DNA from: Omphalotus guepiniiformis | Taxonomy: Eukaryota; Basidiomycota; Agaricomycetes; Agaricales; Omphalotaceae | Reading direction: 5' to 3' | Assembly (NCBI GenBank): GCA_028554645.1 | Contig: JAQOOI010000013.1 | Location: forward strand, 558,001-622,000 | Length of the DNA: 64,000 nt | Shown here: positions 5,052-53,263 of the stretch, piece by piece | Layout: the number at the start of each line of letters is the position of its first letter | Numbering within the stretch: position 1 is the first letter of the stretch | Position numbers and translations under genes: made by a program | Notes under the pieces: model-generated | What the model was told of the DNA's origin: nothing | Database searches by the model: none | Seen by the model: only the letters and a program-made list of their open reading frames with translations

Positions 5052-6524
5052 ATGCCTGCTACTAGTACTACTGGTGCTGGTCCAAGTGGACAAGGTAGAG
5101 GAGATGATGATATACCCAGAAACAATGATAATACAAGGACAACTTTTGTGGGAGTTCATGAACTTTCCCCAGAAGCATTGAAGGAAATCCAGAATGATAA
5201 GCTTCCTAAGAAATCAAAAATGGCACCTATCTTTGACCATGTAGATCCTGGCAGTTTGATAAGCTGGTTGGAACAAGTGGAAGAAATATTCTTGAAAATG
5301 GGAATTAAAGATGATGCAGCAAAGATTTACTTAGCTACAGACTGGATGACTCATGATACAAAGAAAAGGGTTGAAGCTTACCCTGAAACAAAAAGTAGAA
5401 AGTGGGGAACATTCAAAGATGCTTTGAAACAAAACTTTCCAGAGTCTTCTTTAGAAGAAGGAGGTTCTCTGACCAAGTTGAGAAAGTTAAATTCAGAGTA
5501 TGCATATATTCCATTGAAGAACTTTGATAAGTTCTTTAAGTTTAAAAGGCTGTTTGAATATGAGTATAAGAAAGCTGCAAAGCCACCTGCTGTTATCTCT
5601 AACTTAGAGGCAGTAACTCTGTTTGGCAGATCCTTAGAACCTGCTTTCTGGGATAAAGTAAAGGATAGACTGGAAAAGACTTATATAGCTAATCCAGATA
5701 ATTTTAGAAGAAGGGAAGACAAGTATCCTATTGAGGATGTGATAGCTGCTGCTGCCCACATCTGTGAGAATAACATGGATGATGGTTTTGCAATAGTTGG
5801 AATGTCTTTGGCTTCTGAAACAGAAAGAGAAAGAAGTTACACACCTTTTAATATTAAAAGGGAGAATGTTGAGAAGAATGAATTTGAAAGAAAGATTGCT
5901 GATACAATGGATAGGCATGAAGTTGCCTTGAAACAGGTGCAATCTAGATTTGAAGAGAATCAAGCTACCTTGATCTCTCAAGTTCAAAAAGTTCTTGCAG
6001 AAACTTTAGGTGGTAACAATGATATGAATATACCACACATGCAATCTATTGCTATGGGTCAGAACCGTAGTAATAGATATGCAAACCCACAAGGACCTAC
6101 AGAATATTCTTGTTATTTCTGTGGTGAGAAGGGGCATATTGCTACAAATTGTTTTCATCAGAAATCACAGTTTGAGAAGGGATATTTAGTTAGAAATGCA
6201 AGAGGAATGATATTCATGAAAGATGGACAAGTGGCTCCATCTGGTAATATGAATTTTTCTAGAAAGGACAAAATTGAAGCTATTGCTAGACAAAAGGGTT
6301 GGGATAAGGAAGTTGGCAAAAATGCCTTCATCTTTGCAGAAGAAAGTGACATGGGATATAATATGCCTAGTGGACCTTCTGAATCTCAACATAATAGTTT
6401 TGATATGTCAGTCTTTACCAACACCTTGTTGAAGATTTCAGAAAGATTGGACAGAATTGAAAATCAGGATAAAAGCCAGACTTCAAATGGTCAGGCTTCT
6501 TACTTGAACCAGTCAGGAAACTAA
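5052..6524 (+). CDS. gag: Gypsy A Gag (capsid-nucleocapsid)
   Basis: A 490-residue protein for retrotransposon particle assembly and RNA packaging. A capsid-like helical region spans roughly residues 40-240. A charged coiled segment follows. One CCHC zinc knuckle (CYFCGEKGHIATNC, C-x2-C-x4-H-x4-C) lies near residue 355. The first ATG in this frame is at 5052, but the frame stays open and coding-like back to about 4743 with a Ser/Lys-rich sequence and no ATG. An ATG at 4745 lies in another frame and soon meets a stop, so the true N-terminus may have been lost by a single-base change. The next ORF (6533) lies in the -1 frame; the two frames overlap from 6473 to 6524 without a canonical slippery heptamer. 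Confidence 0.9.
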   Translation: MPATSTTGAGPSGQGRGDDDIPRNNDNTRTTFVGVHELSPEALKEIQNDKLPKKSKMAPIFDHVDPGSLISWLEQVEEIFLKMGIKDDAAKIYLATDWMTHDTKKRVEAYPETKSRKWGTFKDALKQNFPESSLEEGGSLTKLRKLNSEYAYIPLKNFDKFFKFKRLFEYEYKKAAKPPAVISNLEAVTLFGRSLEPAFWDKVKDRLEKTYIANPDNFRRREDKYPIEDVIAAAAHICENNMDDGFAIVGMSLASETERERSYTPFNIKRENVEKNEFERKIADTMDRHEVALKQVQSRFEENQATLISQVQKVLAETLGGNNDMNIPHMQSIAMGQNRSNRYANPQGPTEYSCYFCGEKGHIATNCFHQKSQFEKGYLVRNARGMIFMKDGQVAPSGNMNFSRKDKIEAIARQKGWDKEVGKNAFIFAEESDMGYNMPSGPSESQHNSFDMSVFTNTLLKISERLDRIENQDKSQTSNGQASYLNQSGN

Positions 6525-6532
6525 GTGTTCCG

Positions 6533-7927
6533 ATGATGGGATCTAGTACTAGAAATGTGTACAGTACCACAAAGAAGGTCCCTGAGGATAAACAAAGAGT
6601 TGGTATTAAAAAGAGAATGGAAGTAGAAATTATAAGGCCTAAGGGATTTGATAAAAGGTTGTATGTACCTCCACCCTTGAGAATGGAGGAGTTAGAGAAA
6701 GAAACAAAGGATAATGAAGAGGCTTTACTAAGAGATCAAGAGGATATAATGGATCCTTCTATAAAGGATATGGTTATTCAACCAGGTCAAAAAGAGATTA
6801 ATGTTGAACCTGCTAAAGAAAGGCCATTTGATAGAGTGGAGCCATTACAAAGAGATCCTATTCCTAGTAACCAAGCTTTGAACAAAGTTAGAAATGAAGT
6901 GGTGGAAAAAGTTAGAAATGTTCAGAAAGAAAGTAATAAAGAGAATGCTATAGTTTATAAAGAAACAGCTAGAAAGATTGGAGATTTTAGACATACTTCT
7001 ACTTTATCTAAACCAGGTTTAGAAGAGGAAATGGCAGAAAAGATTTTCAATATGGATATTACTGTTCCAGTTGGAGACCTTATGGCTGTATCTCCAGACA
7101 TTAGAGCTGTTATATTGAGAAAAGCTAGAAATAAAAGGGTTGTTGAGAGAGCAGAGAAGGCTTTCTTGCAGATAGAACCTAATCAGAATGATTTGAATCC
7201 TATTCAAATAGACTCTGAGGTGGAACCAATAAGGAAAGTAAATGTTGAGGATATTTGGTCTTTAAAGGAGACTTTCATTACATTGACAAAAGATACTGGT
7301 GAATTGAAAGCTGGTACTATTGTTCACCAAGATGTAGTTGAGCAATTTCTTAGAGATCTAGGTCCTAACAAGAAAGATAAAGTTATACTGGTTGCTAGAG
7401 AGTCAGAAGGACTTAGAGTGGTATTCCCAAAAATCAATAACTCTGATGAAACTGTGGAAGCTGTTCTAGATAGTGGTTCTCAGATCATATCAATGGATCA
7501 AATGGTAGCAATGGGACTTGGAATGTCATGGGATCCTGATGTAGTGATTCACATGCAAAGTGCAAATGAGAGTTTAAAGCCTACTAAGGGTATAGCTAGA
7601 AATGTACCTTTTGTATTTGGGGACTTAACAGTCTACTTGCAAGTTCATATTGTGGAAGAGGCTCCATATCAAGTTTTACTTGGTAGACCTTTTGATGTAA
7701 ACACCCAAAGTATAATAAAGAACTTTGAGGATGGAGGTCAAGAGATAACCATAACTGATCTAAATTCTGGCTACAAGTGTACTATTGGAACCTATCTGAG
7801 AGGAAGAGGTGTTAGAATTGAACAGAAGAAAGATGGATCTACTCTTAAAGAGATTTGTAGACCTCCACCTGTGGTACCTAAAGATGTACAAGAAGGGGTT
7901 GTAAATTTTCAGACCTCTATGATCTGA
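6533..7927 (+). CDS. Gypsy A linker region and aspartic protease
   Basis: A 464-residue frame. The first ~290 residues are a charged linker. A retropepsin-like domain follows at about residues 300-400, with the active-site triplet in AVLDSGSQIISM and a later VLLGRPFD segment equivalent to the second conserved protease strand. It would cleave the Gag-Pol polyprotein. It ends at 7927, and the coding sense continues in the -1 frame (DLYDLIGPQGEVALRVGL) into pol. A heptamer AAATTTT at 7903-7909 sits at the switch. Either programmed frameshifting or a single-base indel could explain the break. Confidence 0.85.
   Translation: MMGSSTRNVYSTTKKVPEDKQRVGIKKRMEVEIIRPKGFDKRLYVPPPLRMEELEKETKDNEEALLRDQEDIMDPSIKDMVIQPGQKEINVEPAKERPFDRVEPLQRDPIPSNQALNKVRNEVVEKVRNVQKESNKENAIVYKETARKIGDFRHTSTLSKPGLEEEMAEKIFNMDITVPVGDLMAVSPDIRAVILRKARNKRVVERAEKAFLQIEPNQNDLNPIQIDSEVEPIRKVNVEDIWSLKETFITLTKDTGELKAGTIVHQDVVEQFLRDLGPNKKDKVILVARESEGLRVVFPKINNSDETVEAVLDSGSQIISMDQMVAMGLGMSWDPDVVIHMQSANESLKPTKGIARNVPFVFGDLTVYLQVHIVEEAPYQVLLGRPFDVNTQSIIKNFEDGGQEITITDLNSGYKCTIGTYLRGRGVRIEQKKDGSTLKEICRPPPVVPKDVQEGVVNFQTSMI
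7903..7909 (+). other. Candidate -1 ribosomal frameshift heptamer
   Basis: In the protease frame the codons read gtA AAT TTT cag, so A AAT TTT fits the X-XXY-YYZ rule. A -1 slip here leads straight into TCA GAC CTC TAT GAT, the open pol frame. The upstream frame stops 16 bases later at 7927. The sequence fits the rule, but the function is inferred. Confidence 0.4.
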
Positions 7928-7980
7928 TTGGCCCTCAGGGAGAGGTAGCTCTAAGAGTTGGCCTGAAAGAAAATGGTGAA

Positions 7981-8478
7981 TTGTTTGTGGATGGGTATAA
8001 ACTACCTGATGAAGATGGAACTTTTAAGAAAGAAGAATTGGCAGAAACTTTTGTATTTGCTGCTAAAGAGTATGTGGAAAAAGATAAAGAAGCTGCAGGA
8101 GTGCTAGATGCTTATATGAACTCTACTACTATAAAGAGTAGGGGAAAAGACAAGCAAGTGTTCTGTAGTTGGAGAGAAGAGTTGAAAGAAAAGAAGGATG
8201 CTATGTTTCAAGAGGAGAATTCTGGTAATATAGAGAAAGAGAAAAATGATAAAGAGTTTGTAGATGTGTATGGAAAGTACAAATCTGTAAAGGATAAAGT
8301 TAGACCGGTTAAAGCTACTTTACCGGCTGAGTTTCGTGTAGAAAGGAATATTTTTGGTGATCCGTTAGCAGAAATGCCGGAATTATCTCTAAATCCACCC
8401 GAGTTCACACCGGGTGAAAGATACAATGAAGAAAGAAAGAATATCATAGACAAAAATCATGATGAAGGCTTTTTATAG
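7981..8478 (+). CDS. Gypsy A pol, N-terminal segment ending at an in-frame TAG
   Basis: This stretch is in the same frame as the large pol ORF that follows and is separated from it by one TAG at 8476-8478. The context GFL-stop-PEEMKLVHHLMKQQ resembles related fungal Gypsy polyproteins that have tryptophan at the stop position, so TGG to TAG is the simplest explanation. The frame is already open upstream of 7981, back to about 7882. The segment is the highly charged connector between protease and RT; no separate function is assigned. Confidence 0.75.
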   Translation: MFVDGYKLPDEDGTFKKEELAETFVFAAKEYVEKDKEAAGVLDAYMNSTTIKSRGKDKQVFCSWREELKEKKDAMFQEENSGNIEKEKNDKEFVDVYGKYKSVKDKVRPVKATLPAEFRVERNIFGDPLAEMPELSLNPPEFTPGERYNEERKNIIDKNHDEGFL

Positions 8479-8487
8479 CCAGAAGAA

Positions 8488-11400
8488 ATGAAGTTAGTTC
8501 ATCATTTGATGAAACAACAGGAAAAAGCTTTTGCTTGGGAACCTGCAGAAGGAGGAAACTTTAGAACAGATTTCTTCCCACCTGTGAAAGTTCCAGTCTT
8601 ACCACATGTACCTTGGGTTGAAAGAAACATTCCAATACCACCTGGTATATTTGATGATGTGTGTAAGATTATAAAGGCAAAAATTGATTCTGGAGTTTAT
8701 GAACCTTCAAGTTCTTCTTATAGATCAAAATGGTTTTGTGTTTTAAAGAAAGATAGAAAAAGTTTGAGATTGGTGCATAGTCTGGAACCATTGAATAAAG
8801 TTACTATACAACATTCAGGAATTCCACCAGCTACTGCAGATGTTGCGAGAAACTTTGCAGGAAGAGCATGTCTAGGAACACTGGACATCTTTGTTGGATA
8901 TGATGAAAGGTTGATAGATGATGATTCTAGAGACTTAACCACCTTCCAAACACCATTTGGCCCACATAGACTAGTAAAACTGCCTATGGGTTGGACTAAC
9001 TCAGTACCTATCTTTCATGATGATGTTACTTTCATTCTAAGAGATGAAATTCCACATGTGACTATACCTTATGTTGATGATGTACCTGTAAGGGGTCCAG
9101 CAACAAGATATGAGTTACCAGATGGCAGATATGAAACTATTCCTCAAAACAATGGTATAAGGAGATTTGTATGGGAACATATACAGAATATGAATAGAGT
9201 GATACAAAGAATGAAATATGTTGGTGGTACATTTTCTGGTACAAAGGCATTCATTTGTGTAAAAGAAGGCATGGTTGTTGGTCACCGTTGTTTATATGAG
9301 GGTCAAGCACCTTCTAATAAGATAGCAGAAGTGGTCACCACATGGCAAAGATTTGACTCTAAGACAGATGTCAGAGCTTTCTTGGGTACTGCTGGCCAAC
9401 TTAGACAATTTATAAAGGACTATGCTAAAATTGCTGCACCTTTGCAATATTTGACCAGAAATGTTCCATTTGAGATGAAGGCTGAACAATGGGATTCTGT
9501 AGTAGCTCTTAAGGAAGCTATCAGAGTTGCACCTTGTTTGAGACCTATAGACTATATGTCAGAAAATGGGATTACACTTGCTGTAGATACCTCTTGGATG
9601 GCAGTTGGATATTATATATACCAAACTGACCCAGAAGATCCTAAGAAGAAGTACTTTAACTACTTTGGTTCAATTACATTGAATGAAAGGGAAGCAAGGT
9701 TTTCTCAACCAAAGAGAGAGCTGTATGGTCTGAAATTAGCTTTAGAAGCTTCTTATTACTTGATTTATGGGTGTAGGAATTTGACTGTGGAGACAGATGC
9801 TAGCTATATAAAGGGCATGTTGGATCATCCCAGTTCAGGTCCTAATGCAACTATAAACAGGTGGATAGAGGATATAAGGAAATATCAGTTTACATTGGTA
9901 CATGTTAAGGGAACTTTACATGGACCGGATGGTCTATCTAGAAGGGGTCCTGGAGGTATAACAACTGAAAGACCACCTGTAAATGAGGAAGACTATGTAG
10001 ATGAAGATAATGGAGAACCATTACAGTTTAGAATGCAAAGTGAAGAAGATGATATACCACTAGACTTTGAGTCTTTCAGAGATAAAATAGACAATAGAGG
10101 TGGTTATCTTCTTGAAATGGCAAACTCTGAAAATGATTTTGAAGATGATTTGCAAGAATGCATAGAGGAAGAGAGGATTGCAGAATGTTATAGGATTAGA
10201 ATTTTAGAAGCTCATGGAATGGTGAAGAGTGCTTTTGCTCAAACTTTAGTAATTCCACCAGGAGATCCAGAGTGGAGTAATTCTCATCCTTATAGTGAAG
10301 TACATAGAAGGGATGAAGGAAAGAAGATGGATGATCTTCTACCTTTAATAAAGGATTGGCATCAAGACAAGAACTCAGCTGTTATTAAAAGTTTGAATAA
10401 AACTGAAAAGAGATCTTTTCTAAGACAAGCTGTTAAGTTCTTTGTTGATAAAGATGGTAAAATGTATAGAAGGAATGAAGAACTAGATGGTCAACACAAG
10501 TTGGTTGTATCTAAAGCAAAGAGAATGTACATAATGCATGCTGCACATGACAATTTGGGTCATAAAGGGATGTTTGCAACTAAAGCTGTCATAGACAAGA
10601 GATTTTGGTGGCCAGATATGGAGAAAGATATTAATTGGTTTGTCCAATCATGTCAGGCTTGCCAAAATAGAAAGTTGGAACTTCTGAAAATACCACCTAC
10701 TCTTACTTATACACCTTTGTTTCAAAAGGTTCATGTAAATGTGTTTAAAGTGTCACCACCTAGTAATGGCTGTTCAAATGTTGTTCATGGTAGATGTGCA
10801 TTGTCTTCTTGGTCAGAAGGTAGAGCATTGAAATCAGAGACAGCAAGGTTAATGGGTGAATGGTTCTTTGAAGATATTATCTGTAGATGGGGTTGCCCGG
10901 ATGAGGTTATCACTGATAATGCCCCAGCTATGAGAGCAATGTTGAGATGGTTGGAAGAGAAGTATGGTATAAAGGGTATTACTATATCTCCATACAATTC
11001 TCAAGCCAATGGGAAGATAGAAAGAGCTCATTTTGACATCAGAACTGCTTTGGCAAAAGCAACTGGTGGAGATTTGAAGAGATGGTACTGGTTTCTGAAA
11101 CATGTCTTTTGGGCAGATAGAGTGACTGTTAGAAGAGGTCTTGGATGTTCTCCACACTTCATAGTTACTGGGGCAGAGCCAATACTACCTTTGGATATTG
11201 TGGAATCAACTTGGTTGGTTAAACCTCCAGACAGAATTCTGACTCATGAAGAATTACTTGGATTCAGAGCACAAGCTCTAGCTAAGCATAGAACTCATGT
11301 GAATGAAATGAGGGAAAGAGTAGATGAAAACAAAAGAAAAGCATTGATAAAGTTTGAACAAGAATATGGAAACACTATAAAGGATTATGACTTTAAACCA

Positions 11401-11892
11401 GGGACTCTGGTGCAAGTCAGGAATACTCAGATTGAAAAGAGTTTAGACAGAAAGATGTATCCAAGATATAAGGGTCCCATGATTGTCATCAGAAGGACAA
11501 AAGGTGGATCATATGTTATTGCAGAAATGGATGGATCAGTGCTCAAAGAAAAAGTTGCAGCATTTAGAGTCCTACCACATGCAGCCAGATACGAACCTAT
11601 ACAATTGCCAGACAATATTCATGAACTAATAGACTTGGATAGTAAGCAATTGGAAGCTATGATTGAGGATGAAGATAAAGACTTGGTCAAAAATACAGAT
11701 TATATTTTTGATGCCATACCCAATCTTAGGCTTGAAGGGGACGATTCTGATGAAGAAGACAGTGATTCGGATCTTGGAGATGACTTAGAAGACAATGAGG
11801 AACCAGATTGGGATGAAGGAGTCAAAACAGGTCAAAAAGACAGACGTAAACTCAAAGTTGCAACTAGTATTCTTCATTACAAAGTTATCTAG
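8488..11892 (+). CDS. pol: Gypsy A Pol: reverse transcriptase, RNase H, integrase
   Basis: A 1134-residue frame. RT spans about residues 40-320, with the catalytic motif as YVDD (near residue 199). RNase H spans about 360-500, with the Asp in LAVDTSW, the Glu in QPKRELYG, the Asp in VETDASY and the Asp in HGPDGLS. Integrase has an HHCC zinc region (HDNLGH then CQACQ) and a catalytic core with Asp in VITDNAP and Glu in NGKIERAH. The expected first catalytic Asp appears as Asn (KVHVNVF, codon AAT at 10738), which would disable integration if the alignment is right. An acidic tail follows; no chromodomain is seen. The element therefore needs at least two repairs (TAG at 8476 and this Asn) to be autonomous. 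Confidence 0.93.
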   Translation: MKLVHHLMKQQEKAFAWEPAEGGNFRTDFFPPVKVPVLPHVPWVERNIPIPPGIFDDVCKIIKAKIDSGVYEPSSSSYRSKWFCVLKKDRKSLRLVHSLEPLNKVTIQHSGIPPATADVARNFAGRACLGTLDIFVGYDERLIDDDSRDLTTFQTPFGPHRLVKLPMGWTNSVPIFHDDVTFILRDEIPHVTIPYVDDVPVRGPATRYELPDGRYETIPQNNGIRRFVWEHIQNMNRVIQRMKYVGGTFSGTKAFICVKEGMVVGHRCLYEGQAPSNKIAEVVTTWQRFDSKTDVRAFLGTAGQLRQFIKDYAKIAAPLQYLTRNVPFEMKAEQWDSVVALKEAIRVAPCLRPIDYMSENGITLAVDTSWMAVGYYIYQTDPEDPKKKYFNYFGSITLNEREARFSQPKRELYGLKLALEASYYLIYGCRNLTVETDASYIKGMLDHPSSGPNATINRWIEDIRKYQFTLVHVKGTLHGPDGLSRRGPGGITTERPPVNEEDYVDEDNGEPLQFRMQSEEDDIPLDFESFRDKIDNRGGYLLEMANSENDFEDDLQECIEEERIAECYRIRILEAHGMVKSAFAQTLVIPPGDPEWSNSHPYSEVHRRDEGKKMDDLLPLIKDWHQDKNSAVIKSLNKTEKRSFLRQAVKFFVDKDGKMYRRNEELDGQHKLVVSKAKRMYIMHAAHDNLGHKGMFATKAVIDKRFWWPDMEKDINWFVQSCQACQNRKLELLKIPPTLTYTPLFQKVHVNVFKVSPPSNGCSNVVHGRCALSSWSEGRALKSETARLMGEWFFEDIICRWGCPDEVITDNAPAMRAMLRWLEEKYGIKGITISPYNSQANGKIERAHFDIRTALAKATGGDLKRWYWFLKHVFWADRVTVRRGLGCSPHFIVTGAEPILPLDIVESTWLVKPPDRILTHEELLGFRAQALAKHRTHVNEMRERVDENKRKALIKFEQEYGNTIKDYDFKPGTLVQVRNTQIEKSLDRKMYPRYKGPMIVIRRTKGGSYVIAEMDGSVLKEKVAAFRVLPHAARYEPIQLPDNIHELIDLDSKQLEAMIEDEDKDLVKNTDYIFDAIPNLRLEGDDSDEEDSDSDLGDDLEDNEEPDWDEGVKTGQKDRRKLKVATSILHYKVI

Positions 11893-24956: not shown

Positions 24957-25220
24957 TGTTGGGAATCAAGAGCTCCATGTAAACAAGGCCAAATTAATGG
25001 CAGCAACTTGCTTACGGTCAAGTGACCACATAACAAAGTAGGGGAAATGTATTGGCATGAGCTGGGATTGAACCAGCGACTCCCAGCACACATAACTGGT
25101 GCTCTAACCAACTGAGCTATCATGCCGTTGGTAGAGTATGGAGGTTAGTCCATCTCGCTATGAGTGGTGTTAACACTCAATGGTGGGGTTAGCACCAGGT
25201 CTTCTATTGCTCATCCAACA
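24957..25220 (-). mobile_element. Solo LTR of the tRNA-bearing TRIM (TSD CTACA)
   Basis: 264 bp, TGTTGG...CCAACA, with CTACA on each side. It is the same repeat as at 28273, 42329, 43536, 52468 and 52788. The element sense, judged from the primer site in the complete copy, is the minus strand. Confidence 0.9.
25054..25126 (-). tRNA. tRNA-like cloverleaf inside the TRIM LTR
   Basis: 73 bases fold as a tRNA: a 7/7 acceptor stem, 4/4 D stem, 5-bp anticodon stem with one G-T pair and 5/5 T stem. Box A (TAGCTCAGTTGG) and box B (GGTTCAATCC) are near-perfect. A TTTT run lies a few bases after the 3' end. The 7-base anticodon loop reads TATGTGT: position 33 is A instead of the near-universal U, and the standard anticodon position would read TGT. 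Decoding is doubtful. Confidence 0.75.
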
Positions 25221-28272: not shown

Positions 28273-28537
28273 TGTTGGATGAGCAATAGAAGACCTGGTG
28301 CTAACCCCACCATTGAGTGTTAACACCACTCATAGCGAGATGGACTAACCTCCATACTCTACCAACGGCATGATAGCTCAGTTGGTTAGAGCACCAGTTA
28401 TGTGTGCTGGGAGTCGCTGGTTCAATCCCAGCTCATGCCAACATATTTTCCCCTACTTTGTTATGTGGTCACTTGACCGTAAGCAAGTTGCTGCCATTAA
28501 TTTGGCCTTGTTTACATGGAGCTCTTGATTCCCAACA
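28273..28537 (+). mobile_element. Solo LTR of the tRNA-bearing TRIM in Copia 1 (TSD GAGCC)
   Basis: 265 bp, TGTTGG...CCAACA, inserted in Copia 1 between integrase and RT. GAGCC is on both sides (28268-28272 and 28538-28542). The uninterrupted site is visible in the intact Copia copy (caccaggagcctgtctcttc). Confidence 0.93.
28367..28439 (+). tRNA. tRNA-like cloverleaf inside the TRIM LTR
   Basis: The same 73-base fold as at 25054-25126, with a perfect acceptor stem (GGCATGA/TCATGCC), intact boxes A and B, and TTTT shortly after the 3' end. The variable loop reads GAGTC here, against GTGTC in the complete TRIM. Confidence 0.75.
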
Positions 28538-42328: not shown

Positions 42329-42523
42329 TGTTGGAAGAGCAATGGAAGACCTGGTGCTAACCCCACCATTGAGTGTTAACACCACTCATACTGAGATGGA
42401 CTAACCTCCATACTCTACAAACGGCATGATAGCTCAGTTGGTTAGAGCACCAGTTATGTGTGCTGGGTGTCGCTGGTTCAATCCCAGCTCATGCCAATAC
42501 ATTTTCCCTACTTTGTTATGTGG
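42329..42523 (+). mobile_element. TRIM LTR, 3'-truncated
   Basis: Begins TGTTGGAAGAGC and matches the TRIM LTR to 'ttgttatgtgg', where it switches to Copia LTR sequence at 42524. The tRNA part is complete. Confidence 0.88.
42423..42495 (+). tRNA. tRNA-like cloverleaf inside a TRIM LTR
   Basis: Same fold and sequence as the complete TRIM copy: perfect acceptor, D and T stems and the same atypical anticodon loop. TTTT lies a few bases downstream. Confidence 0.72.
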
Positions 42524-43535: not shown

Positions 43536-43789
43536 TGTTGGGAATCAAGAGCTCCATGTAAACAAGGCCAACTTGCTTATGGTCGGTCAAGTGACCACAT
43601 AACAAAGTAGGGGAAATGTATTGACATGAGCTGGGATTGAACCAGCGACACCCAGCACACATAACTGGTGCTCTAACCAACTGAGCTATCATGCTGTTTG
43701 TAGAGTATGGAGGTTAGTCCATCTCAATATGAGTGGTGTTAACACTCAATGGTGGGGTTAGCATCAGGTCTTCTATTGCTCATCCAACA
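43536..43789 (-). mobile_element. Older solo LTR of the TRIM family
   Basis: 254 bp, TGTTGG...CCAACA, with an internal deletion. Flanks cttcc and cttgc match at four of five positions, so the duplication has probably drifted. Confidence 0.88.
43623..43695 (-). tRNA. Degenerate tRNA-like cloverleaf in an old TRIM LTR
   Basis: Same 73-base unit, but the acceptor stem now has one mismatch and one G-T pair at its end, both of the C-to-T/G-to-A type. Boxes A and B are still readable. Confidence 0.6.
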
Positions 43790-45365: not shown

Positions 45366-45755
45366 TGTTAGAATCTAAGACAATGCACTACCAGTGATAC
45401 ACTGATCAGACACAATGAATAGAGTTCAATTACAGTTCACTGAGATCACTAAAGCGTTGTAATAGTAGCTTAATGCACAAGAATTGCTTTCCAAGTGTCT
45501 TAGATTTCTCCAGACATGTAAGGATTTACATATTGTTTGGTCCTGTTGTGTCAGGCCGCGCATGAGGCGTGAAAATGAGGGTCCACATTTTCGCGCGCGC
45601 TCTAAACACTCCAGAATGACCCTACATACATGGTATAACTGTCTACAATAGGTATTAAAGTCATTAGTATAGTATTATATGTACTTGAAGGACTCTCTAA
45701 TGATATGTACAGTATTTGTATAGTATCTACAAGTGTTCTAGCACTTCATTCAACA
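45366..45755 (-). repeat. Copia 4 left LTR (3' LTR in element sense)
   Basis: 390 bp, TGTTAGAATC...TTCAACA, followed by cagccccctgat (polypurine tract complement). Nearly identical to 50562-50951. Confidence 0.95.
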
Positions 45756-46122
45756 CAGCCCCCTGATAGAACACTTGTGTAATGGAGGTGCTCTATTGAT
45801 GAAGTGTGTCATCACATATCCCTCAACCTCTTCACTTTCCTCACCTGAAAATGAGGGTCCACATTTTCGCGCGCGCTCTAAACACTCCAGAATGACCCTA
45901 CATACATGGTATAACTGTCTACAATAGGTATTAAAGTCATTAGTATAGTATTATATGTACTTGAAGGACTTTCTAATGATATGTACAGTATTTGTATAGT
46001 ATCTACAAGTGTTCTAGCACTTCATTCAACACAGCCCCCTGATAGAACACTTGTGTAATGGAGGTGCTCTATTGATGAAGTGTGTCATCACATATCCCTC
46101 AACCTCTTCACTTTCCTCACCT
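45571..46122 (-). repeat. 276-bp tandem duplication at the 3' end of Copia 4
   Basis: The block from gaaaatgaggg to ctttcctcac appears twice in a row (45571-45846 and 45847-46122). Each copy contains about half an LTR plus 3' untranslated sequence, so the polypurine tract occurs twice. Confidence 0.88.
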
Positions 46123-46156: not shown

Positions 46157-49100
46157 CTAGGGGTTCTGTATTATGTGCAATCCCATCATCTCCCTCAACT
46201 TCTCCACCTTGGGCTTACTGAGAGGTTTGGTGAGCAAATCAGCTGCATTCTCATCAGTAGGCAGATATTCAGGAGCCATGACCTTGTATTCAACTTGGTC
46301 TCTCAGCCAGTAGTAATGCCGGTCAAGATGCTTCATCCTCCCATGATGCTCAGGATTCTTAGCAACCTTGATTGTGGATTGATTGTCCATTAGCAACCTG
46401 GCTGGCTGAGGTGTCTGGTATCCCAAATCTTGTAACAGGCTGTTCATGGCACAAATCTCCTTGCCAGCAGCAACACCTGCCACATATTCTGCCTCTGTAG
46501 AGGAGAGTGTTACAAAGGGCTGTAGCTTACTGCTCCAGCTAACCACACCTGATCCAAGTTTGACCATATACCCACTAGTGGACTTTGAGTTGTCCCTGTT
46601 ACCACCAAAGTCTGCATCACAGTATGTAACAAATAGATCTGGCTGGCAGGGATCAGGACCATATTCAAGCTTCATGTCCATTGTTCCCTTCAGATATCTG
46701 AATGCATGTTTTACTGCAACCCAGTGTGCCATGCCAGGATTTGAATTGAACCGTGCCAATACACTAGCTGTGTATGCAATATCAGGACGGCTGGTGGTAG
46801 CAAGATACAACAAGGAGCCAACAGCACTAATATATGGAATTCTGGCCATCTCTTCCTTTCCTTCAGCAGTCTTTGGACACTGTGCAGTTGACAGAGCAGC
46901 TCCTGGATCCATGGGTGTACCAACAGGTCTACAATCAGACATGCCAAACTCATTAAGTTTGTTGACAATATATTGTTTCTGACCCATATACAATTTTCTC
47001 TCCTTTCTATTTCTTGTGATTTCTATTCCCAGCAGATATGATGTAGGACCCAGGTCACGGAGTTTGAAGTGCTTTGCTAGCTCTGCCACAAAGTGATCCA
47101 AAGATGCCTCTGACTTGGAAGCAAGAGTGATGTCATCCACAAAGACAGGTACAAAAACCTTAATGTCATCTTTCTGATAGACATATAGGTTTGGATCAGA
47201 TTGGGTGCGACTAAAGCCCATTGATTGTAACACTCCTGCAAGCTTCTCACCCCAAAGTCTGGGTGACTGCTTTAACCCATACAGGGACTTGTTCAGCCTG
47301 CAGACAAATCTAGGACCACGCTCCTTGAACCCTTCTGGCTGTGTCATGAAGATCTCTGTATCAATGTCACTATTGATGAATGCATGAGAGATATCCACAG
47401 AGCGCAAATGCAAGTCCTCAATGGCAGCCAGAGCAAGAATAGTGCGGATTGTAGTCTGTCTCATAGTAGATGAGAATGTCTCTAGATAGTCAAAGCCAGG
47501 TCTTTGGCTGAATCCTTTGGCAACAAGTCTAGCCTTGAACCTTTCAATGGATCCATCAGCCTTGTGCTTTATCTTGAATACCCATTTAGATCCAATTGCT
47601 CTCTTATCTGGTGGAAGTTCCACAACATCCCAAGTGCCATTGGTGAGGTGTGCATTCATCTCCTCCATCATGGCCTCCTGCCACTGTCTGGCATTAGGTC
47701 CTTCCATAGCCTGCTTGAATGTCAAAGGCTCTGGACCATTGTCAGTCATGATGTGGGCTTCCTCCATATTATCATCATCATCTGGCACATCTGCATCCTT
47801 GTTTCGCTTGGGAGCAGGAAGGTTCACTTTCCACCATTCACCAGGAGCCTGTCTCTTCCGCTCAGACCTACGGAAAGCAATTGGTCTATTATCTACAAGG
47901 ACATCCTCAGGTGGTTCAATCTGTTCCTCCTCTGCAGAACTATCATTGTCATCAGCAGGTTCATTATTCTGCTCAGGGCCAGTATTGTCTTGTTCTGTAG
48001 AGGACTCATGGTCAGGTTCAGGTAATGCAGGGTCATCTGACTCAGAGTCAGAGTCAGAGTGAGGATTATCATCAAGAGGAACATAGGACGTATTGGGTGG
48101 TGTACTAGTTGAAGGTTTGGAAGGTGAAGGTTTGGAAGGTGGTTGTGAAGATCCAACTTTATAAGTGTACCTCTCATCAAAGTCAGCTCTCTCACTGATC
48201 ACAACCTTCTTCGTGACAGGATTCCAAAACCTCCATCCCTTCACACCATCTGGATACCCAATGAAGATACACTTTTCCATATGAGAACCCAAGTGTTTCC
48301 TCTTATCCTTCTGAACATGCACATATGCAACACAACCCCAGACCCTCAGATGATCCACCTTTGGTTTCCTCTTGTACCATCCCTCATAGGGAGTGCAGTT
48401 TGGTACAGCAGATGTAGGGCAACGATTCCACACATGAACAAGTGCAGCCAGGCACTCTACCCAAAATGACTTTGGTAAACCAGACTCTTCTAGCATTGCA
48501 ACAATCCTTTCCTCCATCACTCTATTTGCTTTTTCAGCAACACCATTCTGTTGAGGCCTATTTCTGACAGTGTATTGACGCTCTATTCCACAGCTGTCCA
48601 GAAATGCAATGAACTCCTTTGATATGTACTCTCCACCTTTATCACATCTAAAGATTTTGATTTTCTCTCCAGTGGTGTTCTCAGCCCAAGCTTTGTACTT
48701 CTTGAATGCATCAAATGCATCACTCTTCTTCTTCAGAGGAAGTGCTGCACGGAAACGCCACTTGTCATCAATGAATGTGATCCAGTATCTGTATCCACTA
48801 GGAGAATGTACACCAACATCATGGAGATCAGAATGAATGAGGCCCAACACAGTATCAGCTCTGGTGTGTGAGGAATGAAATGGATGTGCATGCATCTTGC
48901 CAGCCAGACAAGGTTCACAAACAGGATCTGGCTTTGCATTAGAGTCTAGTTTCAAGCCCTCTGCCAAATTATCCCTCAACATGCGCAATATATCATTGTG
49001 CCCATGATGACAGAAGCGCCTGTGCCACAGCTTCAGATCCAGAGGTAGAGTTGTTGTCAAACAGAGGCTTTCAGACTTATCTATAGTATGTCCATTCAAG

Positions 49101-50302
49101 TATCCCACATTATTTGCAGTAACACGCGCAGTAAAAAGAATAGGACCATTTCTATCAAATTCCATTCTATCAGACCAAATATGTACATGAAAGCCTTTAT
49201 GTTTTGTTAAGTACAGAACAGAAAGCAGATTATTTTTAAGTGAAGGTACATGCAGTACTCTACTAAATTCAACATCCCTAGATACTTTTCCATCAATGAT
49301 TGGTCTAAACACAACATTTCCTACACCTTCAGAATATATAATTCTATCATCAGCCAATTTAATAGGTACTCTATAGGGGGTATAATTCCTAATCCAATGG
49401 TGATGTGGTGTCATATGAGAAGTGGCCCCCGTGTCTGTATTCCAATCAAGTATGTCAGAAGATGAAGTATCATTAGAAGAGAATGTACTTGCACTGCCAG
49501 CACTTTCAACAACATCTTCCTCTTTCACTTCAGCCTTATTGGCCTGATATCTCCCATTCCCACTCTTTCCTTCATTCCTTGCTGTCAAGGTGGGACATTC
49601 AGCCTTCCAATGCCCTTCCTTCTTGCAGTAATGACAGAACCCCTTCTTCCAATTAGGCTTGATATAGCCTTGTGCTTTGGCAGCAGCATTGGCCTTGTTA
49701 ACCTGCTCTGCCTGTCTTTTCAGATTTTGTTCTTCAGCAATGAAGTACTGAAGAATCTTGTCCTTGTCCAACGTGTCCAATAGCAGCAAGTTTGCAGTGA
49801 GGTTAGATTCTGGGGGCAATGCACGGACTAAGGCCAAAGCCTGCAGCTCTGCATCAAGTTTCTCCAAGGTATATTCCTTGTCTCTGAGATTCCTAATGGT
49901 GAAGACTGCATTTTCAATCCTTGTCCCCAGATCAACTAAACTCTCATCCTCCTCCTTTGTGATGCTGAACAGAGCATCATAGGCATTGAAGCGTGCACCT
50001 GGTGTCCTGGACACATGCACTCTTTCTAGAGCTGACCACATGCCAACAGGATCACCACCAGCAAGATAGGACTTGACATGAACCTTCTGATCTTGTTCCA
50101 GAGAAAGGTAAATGTCACCAGCAGCTTTACTGGCTTTAATCTCCCAATTGGCCAGAGGTGAGCCTTCAGTAGGCTTTGACTCTGCACCAGAGACCAATCT
50201 CCAATAGCCCATACGCATCAACCAAGCCATCATATCTCCACTCCATTCAGGATAGTTGGAGTTATTGAGAGGTTTAAATTTTGGTGTGTCTGAAGAAGAC
50301 AT
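46157..50302 (-). CDS. Copia 4 Gag-Pol polyprotein, intact
   Basis: 1381 residues in one frame from the ATG at 50302. Gag comes first, with a CCHC knuckle (CHYCKKEGHWKAEC, about residue 225). The protease active site follows (DTGATS, about 290). The integrase zinc region is HRRFCHHGH with CEPCLAGK; the integrase core has Asp (IHSDLHD), Asp (RCDKGGEY) and Glu (GVAEKANR). An acidic Ser/Asp/Glu-rich linker precedes RT with Asp (SVDISHAF) and the VDD motif (FVDDITLAS). RNase H has Asp (YCDADFGG), Glu (STEAEYVA) and Asp (LMDNQS). The integrase-before-RT order defines Ty1/Copia. No frameshift separates gag and pol. All catalytic residues checked are present, so the protein is likely functional. It is the probable source of enzymes for the related solo LTRs and perhaps the TRIM. 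Confidence 0.96.
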   Translation of the reverse strand: MSSSDTPKFKPLNNSNYPEWSGDMMAWLMRMGYWRLVSGAESKPTEGSPLANWEIKASKAAGDIYLSLEQDQKVHVKSYLAGGDPVGMWSALERVHVSRTPGARFNAYDALFSITKEEDESLVDLGTRIENAVFTIRNLRDKEYTLEKLDAELQALALVRALPPESNLTANLLLLDTLDKDKILQYFIAEEQNLKRQAEQVNKANAAAKAQGYIKPNWKKGFCHYCKKEGHWKAECPTLTARNEGKSGNGRYQANKAEVKEEDVVESAGSASTFSSNDTSSSDILDWNTDTGATSHMTPHHHWIRNYTPYRVPIKLADDRIIYSEGVGNVVFRPIIDGKVSRDVEFSRVLHVPSLKNNLLSVLYLTKHKGFHVHIWSDRMEFDRNGPILFTARVTANNVGYLNGHTIDKSESLCLTTTLPLDLKLWHRRFCHHGHNDILRMLRDNLAEGLKLDSNAKPDPVCEPCLAGKMHAHPFHSSHTRADTVLGLIHSDLHDVGVHSPSGYRYWITFIDDKWRFRAALPLKKKSDAFDAFKKYKAWAENTTGEKIKIFRCDKGGEYISKEFIAFLDSCGIERQYTVRNRPQQNGVAEKANRVMEERIVAMLEESGLPKSFWVECLAALVHVWNRCPTSAVPNCTPYEGWYKRKPKVDHLRVWGCVAYVHVQKDKRKHLGSHMEKCIFIGYPDGVKGWRFWNPVTKKVVISERADFDERYTYKVGSSQPPSKPSPSKPSTSTPPNTSYVPLDDNPHSDSDSESDDPALPEPDHESSTEQDNTGPEQNNEPADDNDSSAEEEQIEPPEDVLVDNRPIAFRRSERKRQAPGEWWKVNLPAPKRNKDADVPDDDDNMEEAHIMTDNGPEPLTFKQAMEGPNARQWQEAMMEEMNAHLTNGTWDVVELPPDKRAIGSKWVFKIKHKADGSIERFKARLVAKGFSQRPGFDYLETFSSTMRQTTIRTILALAAIEDLHLRSVDISHAFINSDIDTEIFMTQPEGFKERGPRFVCRLNKSLYGLKQSPRLWGEKLAGVLQSMGFSRTQSDPNLYVYQKDDIKVFVPVFVDDITLASKSEASLDHFVAELAKHFKLRDLGPTSYLLGIEITRNRKERKLYMGQKQYIVNKLNEFGMSDCRPVGTPMDPGAALSTAQCPKTAEGKEEMARIPYISAVGSLLYLATTSRPDIAYTASVLARFNSNPGMAHWVAVKHAFRYLKGTMDMKLEYGPDPCQPDLFVTYCDADFGGNRDNSKSTSGYMVKLGSGVVSWSSKLQPFVTLSSTEAEYVAGVAAGKEICAMNSLLQDLGYQTPQPARLLMDNQSTIKVAKNPEHHGRMKHLDRHYYWLRDQVEYKVMAPEYLPTDENAADLLTKPLSKPKVEKLREMMGLHIIQNP

Positions 50303-50549
50303 AATTGTGAAGGAAGAATGAATGTGTTTGTGTGAATGTGTTCCAATAACCCAAGTGATTGTGTCCAGTCAATTAATGAACTGGTAACAATGAATGACAG
50401 TAAATGCCACAAATCCAATAGAGCCAACAATATTTTGTACAGTCAATAGATTGACTTGTAAGGGGTTTCAATAATTGACAATAAATGTCACAGAGCCAAC
50501 AATAGCAATTGAGCAAGATCAATCAGTTCTGTTCAAGTTTTAAAGGCCG

Positions 50550-50561
50550 GGGCCCATAACC
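50550..50561 (-). other. Copia 4 primer-binding site (half-tRNA type)
   Basis: Minus strand GGTTATGGGCCC directly follows the LTR end TCTAACA. It is complementary to the anticodon stem-loop of eukaryotic initiator tRNA-Met rather than to a tRNA 3' end, as in Drosophila copia. Confidence 0.78.
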
Positions 50562-50951
50562 TGTTAGAATCTAAGACAATGCACTACCAGTGATACACTG
50601 ATCAGACACAATGAATAGAGTTCAATTACAGTTCACTGAGATCACTAAAGCGTTGTAATAGTAGCTTAATGCACAAGAATTGCTTTCCAAGTGTCTTAGA
50701 TTTCTCCAGACATGTAAGGATTTACATATTGTTTGGTCCTGTTGTGTCAGGCCGCGCATGAGGCGTGAAAATGAGGGTCCACATTTTCGCGCGCGCTCTA
50801 AACACTCCAGAATGACCCTACATACATGGTATAACTGTCTACAATAGGTATTAAAGTCATTAGTATAGTATTATATGTACTTGAAGGACTTTCTAATGAT
50901 ATGTACAGTATTTGTATAGTATCTACAAGTGTTCTAGCACTTCATTCAACA
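50562..50951 (-). repeat. Copia 4 right LTR (5' LTR in element sense)
   Basis: 390 bp, nearly identical to 45366-45755. It retains the full CGCGCGCGC run. The promoter should lie here, but no clear TATA box was pinned down. Confidence 0.95.
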
Positions 50952-51474: not shown

Positions 51475-52467
51475 AGACAGTTTATAGACCTGGTGGAACC
51501 GTTTAGAGGAGTTGTATCAGAATCTTGAGGTGATTGGACATTCATTGACCAATTCTCAGTGGAGACAATTGTAGGGGGCTTTAAAGCGTATTGGTAGCAT
51601 ATCTTTTGAGAACTTAAATAGTCATATACCAGACATTTGTACTAAGTTAATGAAACTAAACCTCACATTCCCTTAGAATACAGTTCTCTTTATTGGTATT
51701 AATGGCAAAAGGCGTGATTCTTTTCTTTATACTTTGACATTCTTCTTCATTGCAACTTGGCTGACTTTGAGGAGCAGAAATGTCCTGTTATTATTCCGCA
51801 TACCAGCCTGTAATGGAAATGGCTGATGTCAGCAATTGAGCTGATCTAGTTTCCAATGAAGTAAACATGGAAGCTATTGGTTTTGGTGAACCAGAACTAA
51901 GCGCTCAAGTTACTTGCTTGTTCTGCAATGCCTATGAAGCTACCACTACTGTGGTAAAGACCTATATTGATCAACATATCAGTGAGGTGACAGGCTGGTT
52001 GAATGGTGCCTTTGAAACCTCACACAATAGTATTGAAGGCTTAAAGACAGTAGAAGCCTTAGGCAAATTGTGGAAACACAAGCAGAACTGTTGAGATAGT
52101 AGTATGAAGCCCTCGAGCTTCAGGTATACCTTTTCTATTATACACGGTCTCTTTCTATCATACACGGTCTCTCATATTTATGTCTTTCCAAATCTAGATA
52201 CACGACTTCCTTTTATGATCATTCTCTCCTATTCACGTATTCTCCTGTTTCATCCATACTTACTATATCTGGTTGTATGATCGGCCACATATACCCTTTG
52301 TATTCACGTCATTTACACCTCAGTCGATTCCCACATACTGTGTACCGCCTGAGGTGTGTATTTTCTCATATTCCACTATTCACTACATTTTACTTACTTT
52401 GTTTCCTACAGTACTTCGTTCCGATACTTACGTGTACTCTTTTCTGACAGGTACTGTAGACGTTAAT
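51475..52467 (+). other. Gypsy B internal sequence, decayed
   Basis: Contains a frame at 51867-52094 (STEVTGWLNGAF-like helical protein, unrecognised) and pyrimidine-rich sequence. No protease domain was found where one is expected. The segment at about 52322-52450 recurs in part at about 53057-53130, on the other side of the TRIM. Confidence 0.35.
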
Positions 52468-52564
52468 TGTTGGGAATCAAGAGCTCCAAGTAAACAAGGC
52501 CAGATTAATGGCAGCAACTTGCTTACGGTCAAGTGACCACATAACAAAGTAGGGGAAATGTATT

Positions 52565-52637
52565 GGCATGAGCTGGGATTGAACCAGCGACACCCAGCAC
52601 ACATAACTGGTGCTCTAACCAACTGAGCTATCATGCC
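52565..52637 (-). tRNA. tRNA-like cloverleaf in the left TRIM LTR
   Basis: 73 bases with perfect acceptor, D and T stems, intact Pol III boxes A and B and a nearby TTTT. The anticodon loop TATGTGT lacks U33. Transcribed in the same sense as the TRIM. Confidence 0.75.
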
Positions 52638-52731
52638 GTTGGTAGAGTATGGAGGTTAGTCCATCTCGCTATGAGTGGTGTTAATACTCAATGGTGGGGT
52701 TAGCACCAGGTCTTCTATTGCTCATCCAACA

Positions 52732-52740
52732 CAGCCCCCC
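52732..52740 (-). other. TRIM polypurine tract
   Basis: GGGGGGCTG on the minus strand ends at the LTR. The Copia elements have GGGGGCTG in the same place. Confidence 0.7.
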
Positions 52741-52778
52741 AATTGAAGACCGGGTCAGGGAACTTCAATTACAAATTA

Positions 52779-52787
52779 CTGCTACCA
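52779..52787 (-). other. TRIM primer-binding site
   Basis: TGGTAGCAG on the minus strand directly follows the LTR. It matches the complement of the 3' end (CUGCUACCA) common to many eukaryotic initiator tRNA-Met molecules. Confidence 0.7.
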
Positions 52788-52884
52788 TGTTGGGAATCAA
52801 GAGCTCCAAGTAAACAAGGCCAGATTAATGGCAGCAACTTGCTTACGGTCAAGTGACCACATAACAAAGTAGGGGAAATGTATT

Positions 52885-52957
52885 GGCATGAGCTGGGATT
52901 GAACCAGCGACACCCAGCACACATAACTGGTGCTCTAACCAACTGAGCTATCATGCC
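52885..52957 (-). tRNA. tRNA-like cloverleaf in the right TRIM LTR
   Basis: Identical to 52565-52637, as expected for the second LTR of a young element. Confidence 0.75.
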
Positions 52958-53263
52958 GTTGGTAGAGTATGGAGGTTAGTCCATCTCGCTATGAGTGGTG
53001 TTAATACTCAATGGTGGGGTTAGCACCAGGTCTTCTATTGCTCATCCAACATTAATATCAGTCGATTCCCACATACTGTGTGTATCGCCTGAGTACTTCG
53101 TTCCGATACTTACGTGTACTCTTTTCTGACAAGAACTCCTTAGAGCATACAAGGCTCAACTTGACAGACTCCCAGCAGATGCAGGTGCAGGTCCCTTCAG
53201 AGGGCCAAAGGTGCCTGAACCACCAACCGTTTCAAGAACAGATAATAAGATGATCTTGGAAGA

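Follow-up and report, generated by a model that had tools for sequence, protein, structure and literature searches.

The window analysed here, i.e., the whole stretch of 64,000 nucleotides of Omphalotus guepiniiformis DNA, contains on its minus strand (52468-53051) a 584-bp TRIM, made up of two identical 264-bp LTRs separated by an internal region of 56 bp and flanked by a target-site duplication (TSD) reading TTAAT on the plus strand. This is the architecture of the original prediction, which saw in it a miniature LTR retrotransposon with one tRNA gene-like unit per LTR. The minus orientation is given by the PBS-like sequence TGGTAGCAG located past one LTR and by the purine tract (PPT), TTGGGGGG, located ahead of the other; in the sense direction, TGGTAGCAGTAATTTGT stands directly after the 5' LTR and TTGGGGGGCTG directly before the 3' LTR. 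The element leaves no room for a protein. Both LTRs harbor at positions 95-167, in the sense direction of the element, a 73-nt cloverleaf with the box A TAGCTCAGTTGG and the box B GGTTCAATCC, the acceptor, D and T stems of which are fully paired, as had been claimed. The other LTRs of this family (family 1) found in the window are listed in Table 1, together with a Copia element, the two LTRs of which differ at one of 390 sites. A further Copia-type PPT/LTR junction, GGGGGCTGTGTTGAATGA, occurs at 46022-46039. A second kind of LTR element was observed at 5052-11892 (plus strand), with ORFs of 490, 464 and 1134 amino acids, the latter with Integrase_H2C2 and RNase H domains.

Table 1. Features of the window (positions 1 to 64,000) and, in the last two lines, copies of family 2 located elsewhere in the genome.
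Feature	Position	Strand	Remarks
5' LTR, family 1 TRIM	52788..53051	-	264 bp; identical to 3' LTR; PBS next in sense
3' LTR, family 1 TRIM	52468..52731	-	264 bp; purine tract just before, in sense
Internal region, family 1 TRIM	52732..52787	-	56 bp; PBS 52771-52787, PPT from 52732
TSD left, family 1 TRIM	52463..52467	.	TTAAT; ATTAA when minus strand read
TSD right, family 1 TRIM	53052..53056	.	TTAAT; ATTAA when minus strand read
tRNA-like unit, 5' LTR	52884..52957	-	ARAGORN; Rfam RF00005, 57.8 bits
tRNA-like unit, 3' LTR	52564..52637	-	ARAGORN; Rfam RF00005, 57.8 bits
Solo LTR, family 1	24957..25220	-	TSD TGTAG (sense); tRNA-like unit 25053-25126, 58.6 bits
Solo LTR, family 1, 265 bp	28273..28537	+	TSD GAGCC; TTTT at LTR position 174; unit 28367-28440, 58.6 bits
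Truncated LTR, family 1, 195 bp	42329..42523	+	TTTT at LTR position 174; unit 42423-42496, 57.8 bits
Older LTR, family 1, 254 bp	43536..43789	-	flanks GCAAG / GGAAG, no perfect TSD
Unit of older LTR 43536..43789	43622-43695	-	acceptor pair broken, 48.6 bits
Copia 5' LTR	50562..50951	-	390 bp; then PBS GGTTATGGGCCCCG at 50548-50561
Copia ORF	46157..50302	-	1381 aa; Pfam Retrotran_gag_2, rve, RVT_2 and others
Copia 3' LTR	45366..45755	-	390 bp; PPT/LTR junction GGGGGCTGTGTTGAATGA at 45746-45763
Family 2 two-LTR copies	L099 (C14), L100 (C14), L101 (C22), L102 (C78)		tRNA-Pro(GGG), ARAGORN, 8/8 LTRs
Family 2 solo LTR	L110, C42:96903		93% identity

The LTRs could be functional tRNA genes contributing to the tRNA pool of the host. 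ARAGORN reads a tRNA-Thr(TGT) in the six copies of the window, and the Rfam tRNA scores of these copies (58.6, 58.6, 57.8, 57.8, 57.8 and 48.6 bits) lie above the gathering score of 29. A perfect acceptor stem is kept in five of the six, as stated previously, the odd one being the unit at 43622-43695. Furthermore, the Helenus description leaves this option open for the few fungal families of these tRNA-bearing TRIMs that read as tRNA-Thr or tRNA-His (Kojima, PMC10886601). Two lines of evidence speak against working tRNA genes. First, the position 33 of the unit, U in a functional tRNA, is an A in all 37 de-duplicated LTR rows (defined below), in keeping with the missing U33 noted at the outset. 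Second, the run of T that closely follows a functional tRNA gene is missing: the predicted TTTT terminator does not exist, the 584-nt sense strand being devoid of TTTT, and 49 of the 51 LTR copies examined have no such run (T4) after the unit. The two exceptions, both in the window (28273-28537 and 42329-42523), have TTTT at LTR position 174. By contrast, all 16 host tRNA genes sampled (14 from the best-scoring Rfam loci taken as nuclear plus two initiator-tRNA genes) are followed by four or more consecutive T, beginning no further than 25 nt past their end. Taken by itself, the absence of TTTT is within chance, since 16% of the dinucleotide shuffles of the 320-nt unit comprising LTR and internal region also lack it. 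We have rejected the working tRNA gene on the A33 and the missing terminator, and regard it as highly improbable; the earlier view that the unit is a promoter more likely than a decoding tRNA holds on the same two grounds.

A pattern search of the genome for a host tRNA-Thr returned none among its 12 matches, ten of which are tRNA-Ile-like, one (C13:321338) ambiguous and one (C20:2241509) a fragment of family 1. As a side observation, the contigs C50, C64 and C80 have many tRNA matches common to all three, in mirrored order on C50; these contigs probably come from the mitochondrion, with either an inverted repeat or a duplication due to assembly.

In minimum-free-energy folds, the cloverleaf of family 1 appeared only when the unit was cut out of its context, and the probability of the acceptor stem was 0.98 for the unit alone versus 0.07 with a 20-nt leader. 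The ten bases located 5' of the cloverleaf (52638-52647, minus strand) are complementary, with one bulge, to the D arm (52613-52623), and could refold the unit. Chance may account for this: 4.8% of the shuffled leaders (with an 8-nt trailer) gave a value as low, and the host tRNA L040 gave 0.025. We give no weight to this complementarity.

The original prediction had named as evidence against itself cloverleaf substitutions no rarer than elsewhere in the LTR, and this is what we found. From the 52 LTR matches of the genome we omitted an 88-nt fragment, leaving 51, and a 45-nt one below the 100-nt limit, leaving 50 aligned rows, from which nine second LTRs and four copies at shared insertion sites were removed, to yield the 37 rows. 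Mutated cells amount to 68 of 2639 in the tRNA part versus 146 of 6101 in the remaining LTR, and the shared variants to 10 per 73 sites versus 25 per 191 (Fisher P = 1). When only the D and T arms with positions 8-9 are counted, the shared variants are three per 36 sites versus 25 per 191 (P = 0.58). All 21 stem pairs are kept in 24 of the 32 complete rows, and the search for compensatory changes in the stems that had been suggested found no compensatory double change in any of the 21 pairs. Broken pairs number 10 versus 17.0 ± 3.3 in simulated placement (P = 0.02), a statistic that ignores shared ancestry. This equal variation takes away the argument that the cloverleaf is under selection within the family, but leaves the identity of the element untouched. 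Altogether, these data give no support to such selection, although the power of the comparison is low in a young family composed of dead copies.

The genome-wide count of complete and solo copies that had been called for was performed on the 42.5-Mb, Copia-rich assembly. The LTR of family 1 gave at least 52 matches, a lower bound because a further fragment (C20:2241509; 93 of 100 nt match in L115) was turned up by the pattern search. The internal region gave nine matches, every one flanked by two LTRs, which are identical in seven copies and show one difference in two. Perfect 5-bp TSDs flank eight of these nine copies (the exception being C27:70612-71195) and 14 solo LTRs, which represent at most 11 insertions because three of them have one site in common and two another. 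No match was found in the plasmid collection that we searched. It is worth noting that the repeated insertion sites carry solo LTRs of different length (C49:23043, C35:212681 and C51:169; also C33:42187 and C16:1023402); the presence of these sites on several contigs reflects either duplicated segments or haplotypes.

This recurrence of LTR sites with identical flanks on several contigs would be expected if a tRNA pseudogene, caught once, had been spread by tandem or segmental duplication, the family not being a retrotransposon. Such an origin is at odds with the nine two-LTR copies, which lie at separate places, share one 56-bp internal region bordered by the PBS and the purine tract, and possess, for eight of them, a TSD of their own. 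The tandem duplication of a pseudogene, which had been foreseen as a way to overturn the prediction, is refuted by these TSDs and by the position of the PBS and PPT at the two ends of the internal region, and the probability that we leave to this origin is practically nil. Family 1 is young, and it was dispersed by integration.

The pattern of the initiator tRNA has four matches in the genome, two of which were read; the gene ends with AACAAGTTGCTGCTA. The 3' end of mature tRNAs is completed by the addition of CCA. The PBS of family 1 can pair with 17 contiguous nucleotides of the 3' end of the host initiator tRNA, through 15 Watson-Crick and two G.U pairs. The idea that the tRNA-like unit serves as its own primer was rejected, because it is the host initiator tRNA that the PBS matches; the unit of Helenus is likewise described as having no complementarity to the PBS (Kojima, PMC10886601). 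A genome search for the 17-nt site with up to two mismatches gave 33 matches: nine are the TRIM copies and two lie in initiator-tRNA genes, which leaves 22. The reversed control gave 38 matches, and with 22 remaining against 38 this search found no autonomous element with the PBS of the TRIM. Five matches of this search (L103, L104, L105, C16:719341 and C39:20765) belong to a repeat with TGGTCGCAGTGATTTGT; the three that were read are alike on both sides.

Unlike the PBS of the TRIM, which fits the 3' end of the initiator tRNA, the PBS of the Copia element, GGTTATGGGCCCCG, is complementary to the anticodon arm of this tRNA. A search of the genome for this 14-mer gave 51 matches, three of which fall in initiator-tRNA genes; the control gave no match. 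Twenty of the 51 sites were read (L116-L135); several different LTR ends lie ahead of them, and these sites apparently belong to several Copia-type families with the same primer. No tRNA unit occurs in the 464-bp stretches of the 20 sites read. The TRIM and the Copia element of the window nevertheless share 17 of the 18 positions of their PPT/LTR junctions. The junction pattern GGGGGCTGTGTTGRATGA has 44 exact matches in the genome, nine with a G, which are the nine TRIM copies, and 35 with an A, as in the window Copia (three of these 35, in the window, were read). Three more matches appeared at one mismatch, and none in the reversed control. Away from their ends, the LTRs of the TRIM and of Copia show no resemblance, as 136 of 500 shuffles align equally well. 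Based on the junction, Copia would be the likely helper of family 1, in line with the Helenus description, in which it is the likely helper of the fungal families (Kojima, PMC10886601), whereas the different PBS site and the unlike LTR bodies point against it.

A second TRIM family turned up with the pattern AACATGGTAGCAG, which has 13 matches in the genome, i.e., the nine copies of family 1 and four others (L099-L102). Family 2 has LTRs of 175 bp and an internal region of 119 bp, as measured on L102. Its LTR has nine matches in the genome (eight in two-LTR elements and one solo) and its internal region four, and all five insertions have perfect 5-bp TSDs (CAGAG, CAGAG, CTTTT, GCAAC and GAGGC). 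The Rfam score of its tRNA-like unit is 47.8 bits in the four LTRs of L100 and L102; that of the solo LTR L110 is under the gathering score. The minimum-free-energy fold of the unit alone is not a cloverleaf. The position 33 is a C in the Rfam alignment, so both families lack U33. The pairing between the PBS of family 2 and the 3' end of the initiator tRNA extends over 12 nt, and a TTTT is found immediately 3' of the unit, at LTR position 144. The LTRs of both TRIM families are labelled as tRNA genes by ARAGORN and Rfam alike, a warning for genome annotation.

The comparison of the two families bears on the polymerase that would transcribe family 1. RNA polymerase II (Pol II) could start in the U3 part of the LTR (positions 1-94), the tRNA-like unit being a passenger left by an old capture. 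The tRNA part indeed varies like the remaining LTR, and the Helenus description itself expects the use of RNA polymerase III (Pol III) but calls it not validated (Kojima, PMC10886601). A passenger is however difficult to reconcile with the occurrence, in both families, of a complete unit with near-consensus A and B boxes within otherwise unrelated LTRs: the LTR parts located before and after the unit align equally well in 322 and 283 of 500 shuffles, respectively, versus none of 500 for the tRNA parts. We thus consider a Pol II origin of the transcript unlikely. For the internal regions of the two families the figure is five of 500, mostly through the PBS, and for the LTRs of family 2 and Copia it is 32 of 500.

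From these lines of evidence, we consider it quite likely that family 1 is a young Helenus-type TRIM (TRIMp3), the tRNA-like unit of which would be a captured Pol III promoter rather than a decoding tRNA, and the mobilization of which would depend on Copia. Pol III would be drawn to the boxes A and B that the 5' LTR carries in its tRNA-like unit, start just upstream of LTR position 95, meet no run of four T in the element, cross the internal region and the 3' LTR, and stop at a T-run of the flank. Downstream of the 3' LTR, the nearest T4 is 25 to 759 nt away among the nine two-LTR copies. The resulting RNA would be reverse transcribed from the initiator tRNA paired with the PBS, within the particles of a Copia element, and the product would be inserted by the Copia integrase, because the ends of the TRIM LTRs are Copia-like. 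In budding yeast, a T4 is described as a weak terminator (PMC9278858). With T4 absent in family 1 and weak in yeast, we infer that Pol III could traverse the whole of family 1, and, by the same weakness, that in family 2 it might run over the first T4 and halt at the second.

It is tempting, albeit rather doubtful, to go one step further and regard the two families, with their unrelated LTRs, different tRNA bodies, lack of U33 and primer site for the 3' end of the initiator tRNA, as having solved the terminator problem of a Pol III LTR element in opposite ways. Family 1, with no T4, would end in the flank, like a SINE, whereas family 2, with a weak T4 after the unit, would end in the 3' LTR, like the plant TRIM Cassandra. 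If Copia particles pack the initiator tRNA, the TRIMs would use another site of it than Copia does. The second family and this terminator contrast are the parts worth keeping. Two young families in one organism would provide a side-by-side system for studying Pol III transcription, termination with or without a T-run, and priming by the initiator tRNA.

How does family 1 compare with the known systems? Like family 1, Cassandra carries in its LTRs a small-RNA gene with an internal Pol III promoter; this gene is the 5S rRNA in Cassandra and a tRNA in family 1, and Rfam finds only tRNA in the window. In addition, Cassandra is described as having conserved Pol III terminators (PMC7215508), while family 1 has none. 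The nemertean TRIM Ajax, as described by Kojima (PMC10886601), resembles family 1 in its Pol III promoter sequence in the LTR and its 5-bp TSD, and differs in being an animal element with a 5S rRNA-derived, partial sequence only. The tRNA-derived SINEs (SINE2), which the same source proposes as a source of Helenus, also combine a tRNA-derived promoter with a short non-autonomous retroelement, but they are presented there as having no LTRs, PBS or PPT and using target-primed reverse transcription (PMC10886601).

The closest system is Helenus itself, a group of TRIMs with tRNA-derived LTRs described in 2024 in rust fungi, Agaricomycetes, animals and Selaginella (Kojima, PMC10886601). The statement that no tRNA counterpart was known in fungi is wrong in view of this description. 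No other paper on Helenus was found in a search limited to open-licence papers. In this description, Helenus has a tRNA-derived sequence in each LTR with the motifs TRGCY and YGG (box A) and GGTTC (box B), a PBS, a PPT, solo LTRs and, in fungi, a 5-bp TSD; among the primers listed for the fungal families is the initiator-tRNA 3' end (PMC10886601). Family 1 has the same composition: fewer than 1000 bp (584 bp), two LTRs, no coding sequence for mobilization, a tRNA-derived sequence with boxes A and B inside both LTRs, a PBS after the 5' LTR, a PPT before the 3' LTR, and the 5-bp TSD of fungal Helenus at both two-LTR copies and solo LTRs. No structural difference emerges between family 1 and Helenus as portrayed there (PMC10886601). 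As far as shown by this comparison with the published description of Helenus, family 1 appears to be a further Helenus family. What our analysis would add to the published system is the 17-nt pairing with the 3' end of the initiator tRNA, the match to the Copia junction at 17 of 18 positions, and a second tRNA-bearing family in the same genome. Together, these data bring one further genome in support of the recurrence of tRNA-bearing TRIMs.
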